64,000 nucleotides of DNA from positions 62,001-126,000 of IMG/VR virus record IMGVR_UViG_3300025133_000029; one strand, written 5' to 3'. The notes beneath the pieces were generated by a model, which was not told the origin of the DNA, searched no databases, and saw only the letters and a program-made list of their open reading frames with translations. Positions 5,947 through 52,687 of the stretch are shown piece after piece; position 1 is the stretch's first letter; every line of letters begins with the position of its first letter. This DNA comes from a virus. The position numbers and the translations under genes are program-made.

Positions 5947-6687
5947 ATGCCTCGAATTACAGACGAGACAATGGAAGACCATCAGATGGGTGGTTCGAAC
6001 TATTCTTTTTCGGCGAAGAGGATAGACGACTTGGGAGCCTCAGAGTACACCCTCGCCTTTATCGCGGTGGACGTGACGGGATCGTTGCAAGGACAGGAAG
6101 CAAACCTCGAGAAGATGTTGAAGCTTTGTGTCGCGGCTTGCCGTAGAAACCCAAGAGCAGACAACATGATGCTTCGTGTTGTTTTGTTCTCCAGTCAGTT
6201 TCACGGGTATCTGGAGGAAATTCATGGTTTCCGACCTTTGCCCGAAATCAAGGAAGATGATTATACCGGGGTCATCGATTGCAGGGGGGGGACGCCACTG
6301 TACGAGGCGGCTTATACCAACCTGACCGCTTTGCAGCAATTCGCAAAAGATCTTTCGGACAACGACTTTTTTGTCAACGGCATCGGCTTTGTTTTGACCG
6401 ATGGCGAAGACAATATGTCCAAGGTCACTCGGACTATGGTGAAGGATTCGATCGGCGATCTGGTCAAGAGCGAGGATCTGGAGTCCTTTCGCCCAATCTT
6501 GATCGGCTTCGGGCAATCCACATGGCTGCGAAAATTTCAAAATGAAGCAGGCTTCGATCAGTTCGTCGATGCAGGGAGCGCGAGTGAGTCGACGTTGGCG
6601 AAGGTGGCAGACTTTGTGTCTCAGTCTTTGTCTTCTGCCTCGCAGTCTCTGGGAACTGGCGGTCCATCCGTTGCCCTGACTTTCTAG
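5947..6687 (+). CDS. vWA domain protein, TerY-like
   Basis: 246 aa, essentially one von Willebrand A domain. The MIDAS metal site is complete: DVTGS (42-46), Thr116 in RGGTPLYEA, and Asp152 in VLTDGED. The compact form resembles TerY of the vWA/PP2C/kinase (TerY-P) cassettes, where the vWA protein is thought to be a scaffold or phosphorylation target. The C-terminal ~25 residues are Ser/Gly-rich. A second vWA gene, a PP2C phosphatase and a kinase follow on the same strand. Base composition and codon use are visibly more GC-rich than the flanking genes, suggesting high expression. Start: ATG after GGAGAG. Confidence 0.8.
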   Translation: MPRITDETMEDHQMGGSNYSFSAKRIDDLGASEYTLAFIAVDVTGSLQGQEANLEKMLKLCVAACRRNPRADNMMLRVVLFSSQFHGYLEEIHGFRPLPEIKEDDYTGVIDCRGGTPLYEAAYTNLTALQQFAKDLSDNDFFVNGIGFVLTDGEDNMSKVTRTMVKDSIGDLVKSEDLESFRPILIGFGQSTWLRKFQNEAGFDQFVDAGSASESTLAKVADFVSQSLSSASQSLGTGGPSVALTF

Positions 6688-6702
6688 GGGCTTAGTTGAT
6701 AT

Positions 6703-6731
6703 GAGAAATCTTTAGACTCTAAAGATTTCTC
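6703..6731. repeat. Dispersed palindrome copy 2
   Basis: Perfect core at 6709-6725 (centre C), extended to 29 bp by AAA/TTT and GAG/CTC. It lies 15 nt after the first vWA stop. A separate terminator follows at 6740, so here the palindrome is not itself the terminator. Confidence 0.9.
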
Positions 6732-6739
6732 TGCTTGTT

Positions 6740-6776
6740 CGCGATTGTGGTGATTTCCGCAGTCGCGTTTTTTTTT
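6740..6776 (+). terminator. Intrinsic terminator after first vWA gene
   Basis: Eight-base stem CGCGATTG / CAGTCGCG (one G-T wobble), 12-nt loop that can pair further (GG/CC), then eight or more T. It separates the two vWA genes into distinct transcripts or makes their read-through conditional. Confidence 0.8.
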
Positions 6777-6898
6777 GGTTTTTTTACATGTCGTATGACA
6801 CAAAAAGACACACAAGTTGGCTAGTCTTTTTGGGAGTCGAGAAGGGTTTTGTTCTTTCTTGACTAGTGGCTCTTTTTCTAGATAGGAGAGAAAATCTG

Positions 6899-9436
6899 AT
6901 GAGTACCACACAGCCCTTTAATCCTGATTGCAAGTTTATTATGTATGACTTTGCGGCTCGTCCCAAAGCTTACTTCGTCGCGGAGGAGTTGGATGTGAAG
7001 CCACCCGACCCTGGGGAGACAACAATGCGGGATGCGGCACATCACGTCATTGTTGTGGATCGATCAGGATCGATGTGGGGGGAGATGAAGTCGTTGAAAA
7101 ACACACTCCTGAAGCTTCTCACTCTTCAGGAGTATCGGGACAAGGCGCTCAAGGTGTCTTTGATTTCTTATTCGGGAGTTCGCGATCTGACTCTCCACTT
7201 TGAGAAGGTGGATGTCGCGGACATTATGGAGATGGACTCTCCATACCAAAAAGAAATCAAAAGCATCCGGGTCACGGGCTTGACTTGTATCAGTCAGGCG
7301 ATGCAAATGGCAGAGGGCTTAGTCGAGGATGGAGAGTTGACGTGTATCACTCTTCACACAGACGGCTACGCCAACGATCACTCCCCACGAGATGAAAGGA
7401 GAAAGTTGCGGGAGATCTGCAACCGACTGAAGGAACGCAACTGCTTCCTCAACACGATTGCATACTCGCGGTATAGCGACTTCCCGCTTATGGCGGAACT
7501 GGCGAACATGGTTTCGGGTTCTTGTGTGAAGGCACAGAGCGCAGCGGATGTGTATGACAGCTTGTATCAAACATCTTCTCTCTTGGCTCAAAGCGCTCCC
7601 CCGACGTTGGTCTTTCCTGATGGAAACGATTTCGAGCAGCAAGTGTATGTGGAGTGGGGGGGGAGAAAGGTCATCGGAAGCAACGGTGAGCTTGTTATCA
7701 GGGGTGTAGACTCCTGCGGTGATGTTAAGCTCTATCGCTATCAAGAGGTGTCTCAAAAAGAGTATGAATACTCGGATGCCTTCGACTGCCTCACGGGCTG
7801 GACGGATGACATCTTCCCGATATTGGCTTTTGTGCGATATTGTATTGCGTCGGGCCAACTGAATCGAGCGAAGTTTCTTTTGTTTTCGACTCTGAATATG
7901 ACGCTCTCTGATCGTCATGCAGCAGCGTTGGACAGTGAAAGGATTGCGGCGTTCGCCACAGACGTTGATGCGGCTCTCTTTGACAACTCGATGCCCGACA
8001 ATCACATCTTCGCGGACGAGATGGCCCCGAGTGACATGGTTTCGATTTTGGAGCTTGCAGAGCTTCTGAGTGAATACTCGGACGCCATCGAAATCAACAA
8101 AGAAGCGCTCTTCGAAGTGTACAACAAGAGAAGCGTGAAGCGTGTTCCGGGGAAGATTGACCCGTTGGGGAAATATATCCCGCCTCGCTTCAAGCTTCGC
8201 CCAAAGAACTCCAGTGATGAGTATTTCTCGATTCGGGGTGTGGAGTGCAACGAGTCGTCGGCCACCATTAATCTTCTCTTCTCGTATGAAGCGGATCTTG
8301 TGGAACAGGATGCGGGAGAGAATATCGTGGGGGTTGTCGAGGAGGTTTCCAGTGTTCGTTTGAACAATTTGCGCGATTATCGAAACTATACGCTGGTGGG
8401 CGACGGTCTACTGGCGGTACCGCATCTGCAGGTGAGGTTTCGATCCAAGAAAGCCTTTGCGGCTCTCGAGAGAGCGGGTCTGGTGGATGGTCCATGGAAT
8501 CCATCGGAAGATTACATTCTGGACTTGGAACATCTTCCACTGGTCGATTTCCAGGATGCAAGCTTCGACAGTCTCTCGGGCGAGTTTGAACGGATGGCCA
8601 AGCTCAAAATGCTCGCCAAGATGCTAGAGGCAGCTTTGAAGGGTCAGTCTGATCTGTACACGCCCGAGCAGATCGCAGCTCTCGACAGTCACCACCTCAA
8701 GCCATCGCTTTTCTATTCGGGTCCTTCGATCTACAAGTATGTCAAAGATGGCCTGACGCGGGAAGCGGCACTGAGCCAGGGGGTTCTTGATACGAGAGTG
8801 AAGCACAAGGTTCTCTTTGGCACAGAGGACACGTTGTCTCTCGATAAGATTCCGAGTGCCAACGCCTTCCTCCGGGCCTATTTCACAGTGACCGATGCGA
8901 AGGGGCAGTTGGTTGACAAGCCCACGGTGCAGGATGCCTTGGCCCCTAATGCGATGGTGGGTTGGAAGGTCTTGAGTTCGCGCAAAAAGGTGACGCGGCT
9001 CGACGATATGTTGAAGCCACTCGCCGCCTCCTTCTTTGGCATTGACACGCCCTACGAAGTGTTGTCGGTTCTTCGAAGCAGCAGCCTGAATCATCTCACA
9101 GATGACTTCGAAGACTTTAGCAATCGAGACGAATCGACAATCCTGGATGACCTTGTTGAGTTTTTGACTCAAATGAAGCGAGACGTCAAAGGGGTTATCG
9201 ATCGAGTCTACCGCGACAAGATTTGCCCCATTGTGTTTTACATCGGAGCCACTGGTTTGCTCCCCGATAACTATGATGTCCCGGCTATGGGGAAAGTGGA
9301 GCTTGGGGAAGTTTGCCCCAATATCAAAACGGGCAAAAAGGAAGAGGACGCCATCTTCTTCAAAGTAGATGATGTTCTTCTCACGGTCTACACGGAAGTA
9401 GCCGAGTTCTCCAGGGAACAAGCCGCCTCGAATTAG
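6899..9436 (+). CDS. Large vWA domain protein
   Basis: 845 aa. The vWA domain occupies about residues 45-240 with a complete MIDAS: DRSGS (54-58), Thr129 in GLTCISQA and Asp155 in LHTDGYAND. The remaining ~600 residues are soluble and mixed alpha/beta and were not recognised. No signal peptide or membrane span. The chosen ATG has AGGAG 10 nt upstream; an in-frame ATG at 6866 lacks an SD. Codon use is more GC-rich than flanking genes. Its place between TerY-like vWA, PP2C and kinase genes suggests it is part of the same phosphorylation system, perhaps its effector or substrate platform. Confidence 0.8.
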   Translation: MSTTQPFNPDCKFIMYDFAARPKAYFVAEELDVKPPDPGETTMRDAAHHVIVVDRSGSMWGEMKSLKNTLLKLLTLQEYRDKALKVSLISYSGVRDLTLHFEKVDVADIMEMDSPYQKEIKSIRVTGLTCISQAMQMAEGLVEDGELTCITLHTDGYANDHSPRDERRKLREICNRLKERNCFLNTIAYSRYSDFPLMAELANMVSGSCVKAQSAADVYDSLYQTSSLLAQSAPPTLVFPDGNDFEQQVYVEWGGRKVIGSNGELVIRGVDSCGDVKLYRYQEVSQKEYEYSDAFDCLTGWTDDIFPILAFVRYCIASGQLNRAKFLLFSTLNMTLSDRHAAALDSERIAAFATDVDAALFDNSMPDNHIFADEMAPSDMVSILELAELLSEYSDAIEINKEALFEVYNKRSVKRVPGKIDPLGKYIPPRFKLRPKNSSDEYFSIRGVECNESSATINLLFSYEADLVEQDAGENIVGVVEEVSSVRLNNLRDYRNYTLVGDGLLAVPHLQVRFRSKKAFAALERAGLVDGPWNPSEDYILDLEHLPLVDFQDASFDSLSGEFERMAKLKMLAKMLEAALKGQSDLYTPEQIAALDSHHLKPSLFYSGPSIYKYVKDGLTREAALSQGVLDTRVKHKVLFGTEDTLSLDKIPSANAFLRAYFTVTDAKGQLVDKPTVQDALAPNAMVGWKVLSSRKKVTRLDDMLKPLAASFFGIDTPYEVLSVLRSSSLNHLTDDFEDFSNRDESTILDDLVEFLTQMKRDVKGVIDRVYRDKICPIVFYIGATGLLPDNYDVPAMGKVELGEVCPNIKTGKKEEDAIFFKVDDVLLTVYTEVAEFSREQAASN

Positions 9437-9495
9437 ATCCGATTTTTCTATTTCGGGTTTTGTTGAGCGGGTAAGTCTTTTACTTTAGAGATGTA

Positions 9496-9530
9496 AAATC
9501 TTTAGAGTCTAAAGATTTGCCCGTTTTTTT
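9496..9530 (+). terminator. Palindrome copy 3 with T run (terminator-like)
   Basis: Perfect core 9499-9515 (centre G), AAA/TTT extension to 9496-9518, then four bases and eight T. A weak outer CGGG/CCCG clamp (about 9476 and 9520) could close it. The T run touches the SD of the PP2C gene, so it may act as an attenuator. Confidence 0.7.
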
Positions 9531-9541
9531 TGGAGTTGCAA

Positions 9542-10498
9542 ATGGCAGTGGTGCGTGATGTAGATAGTTTTTTTCGCCGAGGTTCTACACATAAGATTTG
9601 TGAAGATTATGCGTGGAGTGGTTTCTTCAATCGCGGAGGCGGGGCTGATGATATAGGAAGATCTTTAGTGGTCGTTTCCGATGGATGCTCTACTTCCCCC
9701 TTTACAGATTTTGGTGCTAGGTTATTGGTAAGATCTCTTATGAATAGAGTCGCTTCTTGGGGTGAATATATAAATATGGAGTGGCTTATTGAACAAGCCC
9801 ATGGGCTTGTTCTGTCCATGAAGATGCCTTCCGATTGTTTGAATGCGACTTTGCTTTATGCTCTTGAAAATAATAAAGGCGATATAAATGTGGGGATTTC
9901 GGGTGATGGCATGGTTCTGGCGAAGTTGCGCTATTCGGGCGAGTGGAAGTGGTTAGATGTTTCTTTTTCTGGAAACTGTCCTGCCTATCTTCATTACCTT
10001 GCCCACTATGAACACTTGAAAGGATTTGCGAATGTAGTTGTCGGTAATCTGCCGACAACTAATGGAGATGAAGACCTGTCAACGCCCCTGGGAGTAAGGT
10101 ATTGCAAAGGGACATTAGTCGAAGAGATCGATTCAATCCCAGAGGTTGAAGATGTTCTCTGCGTTTTTCGTGAATCAGATGAAGGAGATTTCGCAGATTT
10201 TCAAGATCGTTACTCATTGTCTTTCACTCTTGATTCGGATAGGTACTCCTCTGTTTTGATAGCGACAGATGGATTGTCTAGTTTTTTCACATCTGGATTA
10301 ACTAGAGATAATTTACAATCTCTTTTTGAGGACTTGGTTATCAGACAAGTAACAAAGATAAGGAGTTTTCGAGGTGAGTTTCTTCAACGCCGAATGCGCA
10401 AGTTTATTGATAAATATTGTGTGGATCGTCTAATAACGCACAGTGATGATGTTGCCATTGCGGGGTTATTTATGCCCAAAGGAAAAAGTAATGTCTAA
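9542..10498 (+). CDS. PP2C-family Ser/Thr phosphatase
   Basis: 318 aa metal-dependent protein phosphatase of the PP2C-like type. Motifs: CEDYAW (20-25, first metal Asp), VVVSDGCS (43-50, the DG metal motif), GISGDGMV, LIATDGLSSF (about 239-248), HSDDVAIAG (about 301-309, final metal Asp pair). The short form without membrane or sensor domains is that of the PP2C in TerY-P cassettes, where it counteracts the neighbouring kinase. ATG is 6 nt after GGAG, immediately behind the hairpin/T run at 9496. Its end overlaps the next start by 8 nt. Confidence 0.85.
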   Translation: MAVVRDVDSFFRRGSTHKICEDYAWSGFFNRGGGADDIGRSLVVVSDGCSTSPFTDFGARLLVRSLMNRVASWGEYINMEWLIEQAHGLVLSMKMPSDCLNATLLYALENNKGDINVGISGDGMVLAKLRYSGEWKWLDVSFSGNCPAYLHYLAHYEHLKGFANVVVGNLPTTNGDEDLSTPLGVRYCKGTLVEEIDSIPEVEDVLCVFRESDEGDFADFQDRYSLSFTLDSDRYSSVLIATDGLSSFFTSGLTRDNLQSLFEDLVIRQVTKIRSFRGEFLQRRMRKFIDKYCVDRLITHSDDVAIAGLFMPKGKSNV

Positions 10499-10955
10499 AG
10501 AAAGATCTATTGTTTCGAAGAGGTGTTTTTTTCGGTTCAGTAGTGTATGGGGTGCGACAGCTACGGACTTGGACACTTTTATCAATCATTGGATCGCGTT
10601 GCGAGATGCAATAGTTTCTGAACAAGGAAAAGATTACCCAGACACTCCGAGTCCGTATTTAGAAAATGAGATTTATTTCTGTCCCGATAGTGCAGAGTGT
10701 CCAGAATGCGGAACAAACTCAGAGCCGATGTTGATTACAGCCTACGACAGGTTAGAAACGGATGAAGAGTTCGAGAATCGTGTGGGGGTAGAGGAAGTAG
10801 AAAAACAAACAAGAGCATTAGTAGAGAAGGAGAGATTGAAACGAGATCTTGCATCAGCTTCGCAACTTCTTTTGAGCCATGGCTATGAAGTCATAGTGCC
10901 TTTTGTCGAATCAAAAGATGTGGCTTGTATAGTAAATGATTCGGACGAATCTTGA
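10491..10955 (+). CDS. Small Cys-motif protein inside kinase/phosphatase cassette
   Basis: 154 aa; ATG overlaps the PP2C stop by 8 nt and has AAGGA upstream, so translation is likely coupled. CPDSAECPECG gives a C-x6-C-x2-C set that may bind zinc with another ligand. The C-terminal half (about 90-135) is charged and helical, coiled-coil-like. Not recognised. Its place between phosphatase and kinase suggests an adaptor or substrate of that pair (inference). Confidence 0.65.
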   Translation: MSKERSIVSKRCFFRFSSVWGATATDLDTFINHWIALRDAIVSEQGKDYPDTPSPYLENEIYFCPDSAECPECGTNSEPMLITAYDRLETDEEFENRVGVEEVEKQTRALVEKERLKRDLASASQLLLSHGYEVIVPFVESKDVACIVNDSDES

Positions 10956-10976
10956 ATATTATGGAGACTTAGACAG

Positions 10977-12734
10977 TTGCGGATTTATTTAGAAGGTGGT
11001 GGATATATAAATTTAAATCAAAGTCACTATGTCGGAGGAGGTGGCGAGGGTGATGTTTATACAAAGAATGGAGTTGCGTATAAAATTTATCACAATCCTA
11101 TAAAAATGATTCCATTGGGAAAAGTGACAGAATTATCAGTTTTGCGTAATTCGTGTTTCATAAAGCCCGAATCAATTATTTTCGATAAAAAGAAAAACCC
11201 TTTGGGATATGCTATGCGCTTTGTACAGGGCGGGATACCCTTATGTTCTATTTTTCCTCCGTCTTATAGAAAAAGGCATTCTATCACTCACGATCAGATC
11301 TATGAGCTTATTGGAGAATTGAGTGTGGGGATTTCGCTTGCGCACAAAGAAGGGATTATTTTAGTTGATCTCAATGAAATGAATTTCCTGGTGTCGCCTG
11401 ATTTCTCGTCTGTTTGGTTTATTGACGCAGACAGCTATCAGACCCCTTCTTTTCCAGGCACTGCTATCATGGAGTCGATCCGCGATTGGAGCAGCAATGT
11501 TTTTACAGAGCTATCGGATTGGTTTAGTTTTGCGGTGATTTCTTTTCAGATGTTTACGGGCATTCATCCTTTTAGAGGTAAATATAAGGGACCTAAAGAG
11601 CAATATAGAAAGAAATTGCCCTCTGACACAGAAGGGGATGATTTTGCGATAACAAGGCGGCGCATGAAGGATAATATCTCTGTTTTCGATCCAGATGTGG
11701 GAGTTCCACGAGTGGCGTATCCCTTTGATGTTATACCTGATGATTTTCTTGATTGGTATAAGAAGATTTTTGTTAGAGGTGAGCGCCTTCTACCGCCAAC
11801 ATTAGTAGGGGATGTGATTTTTATTGCTCCTCAAATAACGAATCTGGAAAGCACCGACAGGCTTGTCGTCCAGCTGTGGCATTCTTTTGGAAAAGATATT
11901 TTAGATATCGTTCAGGATTCTTTGGGCAATAGATCCTTTATAAAGTTACCGGGTGAGGTTTTCGAAGAAAGACGATTTATTCATGCCCACACTTGCGGCC
12001 AAGTGGCATTGACTAGGAGTGGTTGTCCTATCGAAGTATTCCTATATAAGGATGATGGATTAAATAAAATTAGAATTTCTATTTTGAGCAATGATCTGAC
12101 GTTTACAGATGGGGATAGGATTAAATATTTGGATGTCGCGGCAGAATCTATTTCTGTCTATGAAGGAAATGCTTATGCAAAGTGCGGCAGTTCAATTATT
12201 CGCATCGACTGCGCTGCCGGGAAGATCCCAATCTTCCCACATGTTACTGACGTGCTCCCACATGCTTCTTATTTATTTAGTGGAGGAGTTCTGCAGAATC
12301 TTCTTGGTTCGGCTTACGTTTCTTTGTTTGTGAATATAAAGGAAACGCACCAAATAAGATTGGGAGAATTGGATGGCTATCAAATCATCGAAGCCAAATT
12401 TGATAGAAGAGTGCTTATTGTTAGGGCAAACAAGGACGGAAAGCTGAATCGCCTTGTCTTTAGATTCGCAGATGATTTCTCAGATTATGATGTTCGTTTG
12501 GTAAAAGATATTGCGAATGTGGGGATTAATTTTGTTGTTTTAGATTCAGGTGTTTGTGTTTTGATGGACGAAGAAGAGAACATCGAAGTTTTTCGTTCGA
12601 AACCGGGAAAGATACAGGTTATGAAAGTTGAAGATGATTCTTTGGGTGGGGATATGAGATTGATTCGATGGGGAGGGAAGTTGGGATTTACTAGGGGTAG
12701 CGGTCTCTATACTTTGTCTATGAAGTCAATTTGA
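10977..12734 (+). CDS. Protein kinase of vWA/PP2C/kinase triad type
   Basis: 585 aa from a TTG start with GGAG 11 nt upstream. Residues 1-290 form a protein kinase domain: glycine loop GGGGEGDVY (20-28), VAYK Lys36, catalytic loop VDLNEMNFLV (Asp about 132, Asn about 137), and FIDADSYQ in the DFG place. SDWFSFAVISFQMFTGIHPF matches the helix-F region typical of kinases in TerY-P triads. The C-terminal ~295 residues are beta-rich with repeating strands, possibly a propeller-like sensor or substrate-binding module; they lack the Zn-ribbon or helix-hairpin-helix tail seen in some bacterial members. It ends the plus-strand cassette. Catalytic residues look intact; targets unknown. Confidence 0.8.
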   Translation: MRIYLEGGGYINLNQSHYVGGGGEGDVYTKNGVAYKIYHNPIKMIPLGKVTELSVLRNSCFIKPESIIFDKKKNPLGYAMRFVQGGIPLCSIFPPSYRKRHSITHDQIYELIGELSVGISLAHKEGIILVDLNEMNFLVSPDFSSVWFIDADSYQTPSFPGTAIMESIRDWSSNVFTELSDWFSFAVISFQMFTGIHPFRGKYKGPKEQYRKKLPSDTEGDDFAITRRRMKDNISVFDPDVGVPRVAYPFDVIPDDFLDWYKKIFVRGERLLPPTLVGDVIFIAPQITNLESTDRLVVQLWHSFGKDILDIVQDSLGNRSFIKLPGEVFEERRFIHAHTCGQVALTRSGCPIEVFLYKDDGLNKIRISILSNDLTFTDGDRIKYLDVAAESISVYEGNAYAKCGSSIIRIDCAAGKIPIFPHVTDVLPHASYLFSGGVLQNLLGSAYVSLFVNIKETHQIRLGELDGYQIIEAKFDRRVLIVRANKDGKLNRLVFRFADDFSDYDVRLVKDIANVGINFVVLDSGVCVLMDEEENIEVFRSKPGKIQVMKVEDDSLGGDMRLIRWGGKLGFTRGSGLYTLSMKSI

Positions 12735-14291: not shown

Positions 14292-14422
14292 TTTTTAAAA
14301 TGTCTTTTTGACATCTTTTCTTTTTCTTCGCGAAAATCGATGAGTGTCTCACCTTGGCCCTGTGTTTATCTTTTATAGTGTATAAGATTCTTATGGAGTC
14401 ATCATAAAATACGAGGTTTTTG

Positions 14423-15532
14423 ATGAGTAATAAAGAAGATGTGATGCTTCGGTATCAAAAGATGGTAGAGGTCTTACGAAAAAATCCTGGCAAATATGTG
14501 TTTTTGATTGCGCAAGTGGATCCAGATGCTTTGGGATCCACCGTGGCTTTGAAGGAGTTATTAGAATATGTCACTTCTGAGTTCGAAGATGTCGGTGATG
14601 CGAAATGGTCGTTTTCATGTTGTTATGCAGGAGGAATAGGGCATCCGCAGAATCGATGTATTTTTACAAAATATAATCTTGGTACAAGTATTCGTCTATT
14701 AGAGGAATCTTTACCTCTCATTATTTCTTCCCATGCCAATGAGGTGAAATATATTTTGGTTGATTCTTCGGATATGTTGGATCAACGACTCCCCGAATTT
14801 CTCCGTGAGGAACGTCCACTCATTATTGTGGATCATCATCGTGGCTCCACTCTCGAGGATGGGGATGACGTTATGTATTGGATTGAGGACTTGGGTTCTG
14901 CCAGTACAATGGTTTTTGAATTAATGCATGAAGGGGCAAACTTTTTTGATGACATCTTACGGAATCGACCAGAAAGACGTGAGCAGCTTGCGGATCTTTT
15001 GGCTTTAGGGATTTATATAGATACGCATGATATGCGAACTGGATCCAGGCGTGATCTGGCGGCATTCAATTTACTGGGGGAGTGGAGAAGTAATATTCAT
15101 GTGGCAACGGATTATCCCCTGCCTCCTAGTTATTTTGCCAACTTGCGGACAGCGTTGGAGACGATGCGACGTGAGGATCATATACTGGTGGCTAATTTGG
15201 GAGTTATTGAATCGCGATGCGCGGACGACATCGCGGTTATCTCGGATGAGCTTATTCGGATGGAGGGGGTATCGCTGGTACTAACGTGGGCTGTTGTGGA
15301 TGGGAAGGTTAGAATAAGCGCTCGTGGGACGAATCTAAGTAACCCATTGGACGAGTGGCTAGCCAGTCGCTTTGGGGAGCGCAGTGGGGCTAAAATCACC
15401 CCTACAGGTAAAGGTGAAGGGGGTGCGTTGCTAGATGTGGGGATGGATTTTTGGGTAACGGCAGATACAACAAACGAGCTAGTGTCGTTGGTGGGCAAGC
15501 GAATATGTTCGTTAGCCTTCGGAAGTGATTGA
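14423..15532 (+). CDS. DHH-DHHA1 phosphoesterase (NrnA-like)
   Basis: 369 aa. DHH domain: QVDPDALGS (32-39, metal Asp pair), a conserved Asp in LVDSSD, IVDHHRGS (135-142, the DHH signature) and DTHD (about 199-202). DHHA1 domain near residues 290-340: RISARGTN followed by the GKGEGGALLDVG glycine-rich substrate motif. NrnA-type enzymes degrade 2-5 nt RNAs, pAp or linear dinucleotides with Mn2+. Likely a cytosolic nucleotide-recycling enzyme; action on a signalling nucleotide is possible but unproven. ATG is 6 nt after GAGGT. It converges on infC, with 4 nt between the stops. Confidence 0.8.
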   Translation: MSNKEDVMLRYQKMVEVLRKNPGKYVFLIAQVDPDALGSTVALKELLEYVTSEFEDVGDAKWSFSCCYAGGIGHPQNRCIFTKYNLGTSIRLLEESLPLIISSHANEVKYILVDSSDMLDQRLPEFLREERPLIIVDHHRGSTLEDGDDVMYWIEDLGSASTMVFELMHEGANFFDDILRNRPERREQLADLLALGIYIDTHDMRTGSRRDLAAFNLLGEWRSNIHVATDYPLPPSYFANLRTALETMRREDHILVANLGVIESRCADDIAVISDELIRMEGVSLVLTWAVVDGKVRISARGTNLSNPLDEWLASRFGERSGAKITPTGKGEGGALLDVGMDFWVTADTTNELVSLVGKRICSLAFGSD

Positions 15533-15536
15533 GATT

Positions 15537-16034
15537 TCAGGAGGGGGGACTGAGCTTCATAAGGATGCTACGACCCTGACGGAGAGGGTTTTGGTCCACG
15601 GAGCAGGAGAGGGAACTCTTGAAGCGCTCGAGCAGTCTCATCCCAATCTCAGGGTGGCTGGCTTCTCTTCCGCGGAATTGAAGGACCACCTTTACTTGGT
15701 GTCCTTGATTGAGAAACTCTTGTGCGCGTCGTATTTTTGTCTCGAAGTCGTGATCCCCAATCTTGGGTCTCATCTTTATTTCTTTGACAGTTGTTCTTTT
15801 TTGCCGATTTTCTTTTCTTCGCTTCTTTTGTTCATATTGCAGCTTTCCATAGTCGACAATTCGGCAAACCGGAGGATCTGCATCGGGAGACACCTCGACT
15901 AAATCCAGATCCGAAGCTTCGGCAGTTCGGAGCGCTTGTGCCAAAGGAAAGGTTCCTAGTTGAGCGCCTTCCTGATCGATAAGCCTGACCACTCGTGATG
16001 TTATTTGGTCGTTGATTCGTAATTGTTTTTTAAT
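15537..16034 (-). CDS. infC: Translation initiation factor IF3, AUU start
   Basis: 165 aa homologue of bacterial IF3 (~180 aa), which binds the 30S subunit and controls start-codon selection. N domain: RINDQI, VVRLIDQEGAQLG, DLDLVEVSPDADPPVCRI, DYGKL; then a Lys-rich linker (KKRRKENRQKR) and the C domain (KEIKMRP, GDHDFETKIRRAQEFL, VKVVLQFRGRE). The frame is closed by TAG just upstream and has no ATG or TTG; a GTG at 15992 would delete the conserved INDQI segment. An ATT at 16034-16032 lies exactly 8 nt after a GAGGAG SD, and AUU is the classical infC start. Both domains are intact. Lone minus-strand gene between plus-strand genes. Confidence 0.9.
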   Translation of the reverse strand: MKKQLRINDQITSRVVRLIDQEGAQLGTFPLAQALRTAEASDLDLVEVSPDADPPVCRIVDYGKLQYEQKKRRKENRQKRTTVKEIKMRPKIGDHDFETKIRRAQEFLNQGHQVKVVLQFRGREASHPEIGMRLLERFKSSLSCSVDQNPLRQGRSILMKLSPPS

Positions 16035-16061
16035 TGTTCTATCTCCTCTGTGTGTTTGTTT

Positions 16062-16093
16062 CTATCGAATAGACTCTTTTGGTGATTCGATAG
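16062..16093. promoter_or_regulatory. 9-bp inverted repeat upstream of infC
   Basis: CTATCGAAT (16062-16070) and ATTCGATAG (16085-16093), perfect arms, 14-nt spacer. In an infC transcript this is a hairpin 13 nt before the SD; in DNA it covers the -35 area of the opposite promoter. Either an operator or an RNA control element. Confidence 0.5.
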
Positions 16094-51179: not shown

Positions 51180-51452
51180 ATGCTTTACAAGGTAAGTGAT
51201 GGTTCGGTGAGTTACCATGTCTTTGCGGCTATGGATGAGATGGTTCTGGGGGTGTTGCAAGAGGGTGCAGATCTATCTGATGAGGAGATGGAGGGGTTCT
51301 CGATTGAACGACACTATCCAAATGATGTTGTCGTTACTGTTTCTTTTGAGGGAGGGGTGTGCGATCCCGTCCATCTGGCTGCCGAGCAATGGGTTGCCTT
51401 ATGGGAGAGCTTCTTGGGGAAAGGTTCTGCTATCTTGTCTTGTTCAGAGTGA
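51180..51452 (+). CDS. Small acidic protein, 90 aa
   Basis: 90 aa; ATG 9 nt after GGAG. Acidic, with an alpha/beta outline (VSYHVFAAMDEMVLGVLQEG). 14 nt before the nucleotidyltransferase gene, so likely same transcript. Unknown. Confidence 0.5.
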   Translation: MLYKVSDGSVSYHVFAAMDEMVLGVLQEGADLSDEEMEGFSIERHYPNDVVVTVSFEGGVCDPVHLAAEQWVALWESFLGKGSAILSCSE

Positions 51453-51466
51453 TAGGGGTTTATAAA

Positions 51467-52687
51467 ATGATAATAGATGAAGTTGTACAGAATTTATGTT
51501 TTTTGACTCTTCATGGTTCAAGAGCTTATGGAACATCTCGTCCTGATTCAGATTGGGATGTTCGTGGAGTCGCCATAAGTTCGATGGATTGGCATCTGGG
51601 TTCAAGGAAATGGGAGCAGACTCAAGAAAATCATCCTCGAGTGAAACATTTATTGGGTGAGAGATTCCCATCTGCTCTCGAACATCCCGATCCTTTGGAT
51701 TGCGAGATAAGGTGTTTGAGAAAATTTGTATCTTTGGCATCGGATTGCAATCCAAACGTTCTGGATGTTCTCTTTGCGGATCCAAAAGATTGGATTTTTG
51801 CAACGCGCCCATGGATAAACCTTTATGAAGAGAGACATCGCTTTCTTTCTCTTAGAGTCCAGCATACTTATACAGGGTATGCCGTATCGCAACTGAAGCG
51901 AATTGTTCGTCATAGGGGGTGGTTACTTAATCCACCGTCTAAAAAACCAACGAGAGAGGGGTTTGGTCTTCCTCCACATAAGAAATTAGTAAACAAGGAA
52001 CTGAGTGATCTTGTGGAGTCTTTGTTATCAAAAAAAATAAATGAGTGGAGACTAGATCAGTGGTTTGAATCGATGCCCGAAGAGGTGAGGGATTCTTTTC
52101 GTGAAGATTTGTCTGCTTATTTTGAGATGGTTCACGGTCGTCATATGGATGGGCATAAAGAGCATGAGCGGTATCAGGCTTCGCAAGCGGTGGGTTTGCC
52201 GGATCATTTATTTGAGGAGATTGAGAGAGAGAGAAGATTCCCCAATGCTATGAAACAATGGAAGCAATATCAAAGTTGGAAAAAAAACAGAAACCCAGAA
52301 AGAGCGAAACTAGAAGAAGAGTTTGGGTATGACTCCAAACACGCGAGTCATTTGGTGCGACTCCTCCTAAGTGCTCAAGAAATATTGAGTACGGGAACAC
52401 TGAGTGTTCGGCATCCCTATGCAGAATTACTGAAAGAAGTACGTTCTGGTGAGTGGGAATATGATCAACTAATTGAGGAGGCAGAGAATCATAAGGAAGC
52501 AATTAAGGAATTGGTAAGAGAAAACCCAAAGAATCTTCCGAAGTCTACGGATAAATATTCTATTGGAATGATCTCAACAGAAATTATATTGGAAGCAAAT
52601 GGATATGTCCCAATGGGAAGTGGATTGGATGAAATTTTCCCTTATCCAAACTTGGCAGGGATCTATCCAAACTTAGGAGGGGATTGA
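51467..52687 (+). CDS. RlaP-like predicted nucleotidyltransferase
   Basis: 406 aa from ATG 51467 (AGGGG upstream); longer frames overlap the preceding gene. HGSRAYGTSRPDSDWD (16-31) is the G-S-x-A-x-G...S-D-x-D core of the polymerase-beta-type nucleotidyltransferase fold, followed by VRGVAIS as in the RlaP/YcgL family. These add nucleotides to RNA ends or other acceptors and often occur with RNA ligases in phages. The rest is helical (YTGYAVSQLKRIVRH, DSKHASHLVRLLLSAQEIL), also typical of the family. The 3' end overlaps the convergent gene at 52663 by 25 nt. Confidence 0.75.
   Translation: MIIDEVVQNLCFLTLHGSRAYGTSRPDSDWDVRGVAISSMDWHLGSRKWEQTQENHPRVKHLLGERFPSALEHPDPLDCEIRCLRKFVSLASDCNPNVLDVLFADPKDWIFATRPWINLYEERHRFLSLRVQHTYTGYAVSQLKRIVRHRGWLLNPPSKKPTREGFGLPPHKKLVNKELSDLVESLLSKKINEWRLDQWFESMPEEVRDSFREDLSAYFEMVHGRHMDGHKEHERYQASQAVGLPDHLFEEIERERRFPNAMKQWKQYQSWKKNRNPERAKLEEEFGYDSKHASHLVRLLLSAQEILSTGTLSVRHPYAELLKEVRSGEWEYDQLIEEAENHKEAIKELVRENPKNLPKSTDKYSIGMISTEIILEANGYVPMGSGLDEIFPYPNLAGIYPNLGGD

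Follow-up and report, generated by a model that had tools for sequence, protein, structure and literature searches.

An infC-like gene with an AUU initiation codon in a tailed phage genome, and the initiation codons of other phage IF3 genes

The IF3 Gene and Its Phage Setting

The window analyzed here is a stretch of 64,000 nt, corresponding to bases 62001–126000 of a virus record of 161,002 bases, and it contains on its reverse strand an open frame whose translation, from 16034 to 15537, reads IKKQLRINDQITSRVVRLIDQEG...LSPPS, i.e., 165 residues followed by a stop codon. The features of the locus are listed in Table 1. The original prediction had recognized a translation initiation factor IF3 with both of its domains, and the domain matches bear this out: IF3_N (PF05198) is matched at 107 bits, IF3_C (PF00707) at 100 bits, and the infC equivalog TIGR00168 at 185 bits for a cut-off of 60; the phage family phrog_9787 matches at 165 bits, and solved IF3 structures are also found among the sequence matches. 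The protein was modeled with AlphaFold2 from an alignment that included 26 relatives (mean pLDDT 90.6). As expected for IF3, the model consists of two alpha/beta domains joined by a helix (residues 62–78); its pTM of 0.53 means that it does not fix how these domains sit relative to each other.

With the E. coli residue numbering taken from the alignment, the protein retains the residues aligned to Y75, R99, K110, R112, R131, R133, R147, and R168; R116 is replaced with E and R129 with Q, two positions that are variable among bacteria too. In most of the other viral IF3 proteins (the 103 viral clusters described below), R99, R112, R147, or R168 is changed, whereas the window protein keeps them all. 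Because these bacterial-type residues are retained, it looks able, judging from the alignment, to bind the 30S subunit as bacterial IF3 does.

Table 1. Features of the infC locus, with positions given in the window.
Feature	Position	Strand	Basis
infC-like gene, IF3, 165 residues plus stop, AUU start	15537..16034	-	Open frame, domain matches, AlphaFold2
AUU start codon	16032..16034	-	Only start-like codon in frame with a Shine-Dalgarno match; aligns with bacterial AUA/AUU/AUC starts
Shine-Dalgarno GAGGAG, 8 nt before AUU	16043..16048	-	Sequence; AGGAG scored by the Shine-Dalgarno scan
In-frame TAG stop closing the frame upstream	16062..16064	-	Sequence
First standard codon of the frame (GTG), not regarded as the start	15990..15992	-	No Shine-Dalgarno match; its use would delete residues 1–14, including RINDQI
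Perfect 9-bp inverted repeat CTATCGAAT / ATTCGATAG, 14-base spacer, 13 nt upstream of GAGGAG	16062..16093	.	Single copy in the window, 0.01 expected by chance

The surroundings of the gene are those of a phage. Among the proteins encoded inside the window are a head maturation protease and a major head protein (phrog_752, E 7e-98); a terminase large subunit family protein, DNA polymerase A, a primase, a helicase, and a RecA family protein are encoded in the flanks. With 43% identity, the capsid protein of Bacillus phage SBSphiC is the nearest to that of the window phage, and SPO1-type phages follow. The huge-phage setting implied by the original prediction does not hold, as the record is 161 kb long and belongs to a tailed phage with an SPO1-like capsid protein. 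We found no close relative of either the IF3 protein or the capsid protein in IMG/VR.

The infC gene stands alone and points left among mostly rightward genes. A DHH-family gene (14420–15532) converges on it, and the ends of the two are 4 bases apart. The gene order infC-rpmI-rplT is typical of bacteria and is not essential to the AUU mechanism; here this order is absent, and neither L35 (rpmI) nor L20 (rplT) nor thrS was found near the window infC. A bacterial misassembly or a host gene adjoining a prophage was considered as the source of the AUU start and rejected, given that rpmI, rplT, and thrS are missing nearby and that phage hallmark genes lie on the contig.

Several other genes of the record deserve mention. 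A run of von Willebrand A, PP2C phosphatase, and protein kinase genes (window 5947–12734) resembles a TerY-phosphatase-kinase triad; a probable RlaP RNA-repair nucleotidyltransferase lies at 51359–52687, and a HAD RNA-repair domain is also encoded in the left flank. The RecA family protein (L016:9455-11539) is 694 residues long; in the flank set that contains it, an intein splicing domain is matched by two proteins, of which this long RecA may be one.

Ten tRNA genes are located at the left end of the contig. One of them, outside the window, is a CAU tRNA (G000:C1:33-108, i.e., L015:33-108) whose anticodon stem is the GGG/CCC stem known from initiator tRNA; three further features, namely C11-G24, an A1-U72 pair, and U73, are atypical for an initiator. 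The same anticodon arm occurs in 7 of 31 viral records, the window record included, in a sample made up of IF3 carriers only; some of the seven, such as L226 and L232, look like full initiator tRNAs. A tRNA-Ile(AAU) was considered as an initiator reading AUU and dropped, its acceptor stem being mispaired and the initiator anticodon stem missing. IF1, S21, and peptide deformylase were searched for in the contig, and none was found.

The AUU Initiation Codon and Its Leader

Nine sense codons (KQTHRGDRT) separate the in-frame TAG from the ATT at 16034–16032, in agreement with the stop codon predicted just upstream, and a reading of the sequence from this stop down to GTG15992 reveals no ATG, GTG, or TTG in frame. 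The assertion that the frame has no AUG at all stands for the part upstream of RINDQI; it fails inside the gene, the sole place where in-frame ATG codons are present, the first at residue 88. The spacer between GAGGAG and ATT, ATAGAACA, is exactly 8 nt long, as had been predicted. Likewise, an AUU start does restore the conserved RINDQI segment: bacterial homologues start with AUU, AUA, or AUC at the same place, as in the aligned starts of Dehalococcoidia (IIKQLRINQM, AUA) and Lentisphaerae (IAKLLKPNDR, AUU, AUC, or AUA).

One could argue that the true start lies elsewhere, at GTG15992 or another site, that the IF3 is shortened, and that the AUU is a coincidence. GTG15992 is indeed the first standard codon of the frame, and N-terminally shortened IF3 proteins do occur, four viral genes (L098, L101, L102, and L103) starting at an ATG some 15 residues beyond the usual position and without the RIN segment. 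We consider this highly improbable for the window gene, as it is the AUU and not GTG15992 that has a properly placed Shine-Dalgarno sequence, and as residues 1–14 match bacterial IF3 residue by residue. ATG is the start chosen in 48 of the 54 scored genes of the contig.

The inverted repeat upstream of the Shine-Dalgarno sequence is either a hairpin of the infC leader or an operator between the divergent genes. In the predicted fold of the leader (z only −1.5), the AUU is unpaired, a hairpin forms at the inverted repeat, and part of GAGGAG is weakly paired with the far 5′ end. A promoter scan upstream of infC gave nothing exceeding chance.

Initiation Codons across Viral and Bacterial IF3 Genes

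We compared the start of the window gene with those of 132 viral IF3 loci from IMG/VR, gathered by alignments and motif fragments and grouped in 103 clusters at 90% identity, and with those of 73 bacterial loci (59 clusters) that were chosen by their likeness to the window IF3, a choice that possibly biases this sample. A standard start was counted when an ATG, GTG, or TTG was available in the part of the frame that follows the upstream stop and precedes the conserved RIN asparagine. Of the 103 viral clusters, 77 have an ATG and 17 a GTG or TTG only; these 94 are an upper bound, since an available ATG need not be the one used. Four further clusters are devoid of the N-terminal segment, and five have no usable standard start. 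Among the bacterial clusters with a Shine-Dalgarno match of at least 5, AUU, AUA, or AUC is the best-supported start in 46 of 47. The comparison with other phage infC starts, which had been proposed as a check, thus shows that the AUU start is an exception among phage IF3 genes and is rare in the viral set. Isolated or named phages fit this picture: an ATG is available in 121Q, XaC1, BF, and the huge phages of the LR756500 series, and a GTG is used by Atu_ph07 and Phosso.

A Shine-Dalgarno match of at least 5 is found at about 5% of random window positions. As the bacterial starts are so uniform and such a match is this infrequent, the AUU start of the window infC is not, on sequence grounds, a product of chance; sequence data could hardly make its assignment any firmer.

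The five viral clusters without a standard start are represented by L096, L109, L131, L213, and L158. In L096, the start would be AUA or AUU, and the neighbors include a dUTPase as well as a protein with a match to head maturation proteases; in L109, it is AUA, with a stop two codons upstream and a terminase on the contig; L131 has CUG after AGGAG and L213 has AUU after AAGGAG. Two terminase models found nothing in L213 and L131, which makes the phage status of these two less certain. L158 (AUA) was rejected as a viral IF3 because it adjoins L35 and L20 and is, therefore, a bacterial locus. In the whole comparison, a single viral locus has L35, L20, or ThrS detected beside infC, against 66 of the 73 bacterial ones. 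Records labeled as phages and showing an AUU, such as Vibrio Va_90-11-286_p16, carry thrS-infC-rpmI-rplT, i.e., host-type DNA, and were not counted. Judged by eye, TnpB-like transposon-associated proteins (L213:3361-4569 and L131:8269-9390) lie by the non-AUG IF3 genes of L213 and L131.

The bacterial IF3 proteins found are at most 52% identical to the window IF3. In a quick tree, the latter is nearest to bacterial sequences, without support, and L109 groups with nine bacterial-type sequences in a set supported at 99%. We infer that phages may have captured the AUU-type infC genes in separate events and that these genes may still work as they do in bacteria.

A Model for IF3-Sensing Translation

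It is common textbook matter that IF3 autoregulation is a feedback loop. The original prediction had taken the AUU codon to be the basis of IF3 self-repression in bacteria, and this is established for E. coli, where IF3 represses infC translation from AUU and where changing AUU to AUG abolishes the autocontrol (Butler 1987, cited in PMC5472188); the repression of AUU by IF3 and infC autocontrol are also treated in PMC9410913.

The model that we find best supported, and which we hold to be probable, is that the phage carries a captured bacterial infC that has kept its IF3-sensing translation and supplies extra IF3 only when free IF3 is scarce. In this view, a tailed phage would have a bacterial-type infC as a unit of one gene, translated from AUU behind a strong Shine-Dalgarno sequence. 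As initiation complexes on AUU are destabilized by IF3, the phage infC should be repressed by the host factor and by the phage factor alike, and most phage IF3 would be produced when free IF3 is in short supply compared with 30S subunits; a possible trigger is a collapse of host infC expression during infection. The AUU would then act as a sensor, topping up IF3 without overshoot. It should be stressed that the repression, its trigger, and its benefit are all inferred from the codon.

The main rival is that the AUU is a relic: the captured infC would simply retain its bacterial codon, not yet replaced, which would lower expression without regulatory benefit. The position of the window IF3 near bacteria and not in a viral clade (without support), the grouping of the AUA-started L109 with bacterial-type sequences, and the use of ATG by large viral groups all speak for it. 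Nevertheless, the protein is far from the bacterial homologues found, yet its frame is intact and its functional residues are conserved, and AUU, AUA, or CUG starts arise independently in at least three other viral IF3 genes; we, therefore, regard a relic as rather unlikely. The low identity to any bacterial IF3 found suggests that the AUU has been kept over a long divergence, an argument that is weaker if the true donor is unsampled, as it may be.

Another possibility is that the phage IF3 shifts start-codon choice in the phage's favor, the AUU merely setting a low expression. Phage IF3 has been proposed to redirect host translation (PMC7162821), and the standard starts of most phage IF3 genes should free them from self-repression. 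We find this improbable here: the phage's own genes mostly start with ATG after an ordinary Shine-Dalgarno sequence, so no start-codon class to be favored is visible, and a self-limiting start is poorly suited to the overproduction of a factor.

A point against the IF3-sensing model is that self-repression is clearly dispensable for most phages, since a standard start is available in 94 of the 103 viral clusters. There may be two regulatory classes of phage IF3 genes, a tentative proposal to which we give slightly less than even chances: most would have exchanged the bacterial AUU, AUA, or AUC for AUG, GUG, or UUG and should thereby escape self-repression, and a minority, including the window phage, would sense free IF3 during infection. 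If most phages did break the loop by a single start-codon change and a few kept it, this would amount to a natural experiment opposing surplus IF3 to a fixed IF3-to-ribosome ratio, and the two classes are directly testable by start-codon swaps. On the practical side, gene callers restricted to ATG, GTG, and TTG, as the standard ones are, will overlook such genes or misplace their starts.

Comparison with Known Systems

Neither phage IF3 nor the AUU of bacterial infC is new in itself. The novelty lies in the start-codon context: a phage infC started by AUU, and the loss of this start in most phages, are absent from the papers searched; our literature search, whose coverage was incomplete, found no paper on phage infC start codons.

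Bacterial infC, which is autoregulated through a non-AUG start, is reported to begin with AUU in E. coli and B. subtilis (PMC1805508) and with ATC in Streptomyces (PMC5472188). The window gene has in common with these both IF3 domains, a non-AUG start at the homologous position, and a Shine-Dalgarno sequence before it; unlike them, it lies in a phage and is not followed by rpmI and rplT. The IF3 proteins of jumbo and huge phages (121Q, CBB, Atu_ph07, Phosso, and LR756500-LR756511; phrog_9787), which had been reported earlier (PMC7162821, PMC5259590), as the original prediction stated for huge phages, belong to the same family and also come from tailed phages. The ones that we inspected start with ATG or GTG, whereas the window IF3 starts with AUU, and many of them differ from bacterial IF3 at the residues aligned to R99, R112, R147, and R168. 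A last parallel is Streptomyces sigR, whose GTC start is repressed by IF3 (PMC5472188): there, an unusual start codon confers sensitivity to IF3, as it would in the window infC. However, sigR is a bacterial gene encoding a sigma factor, and its repression was shown experimentally.
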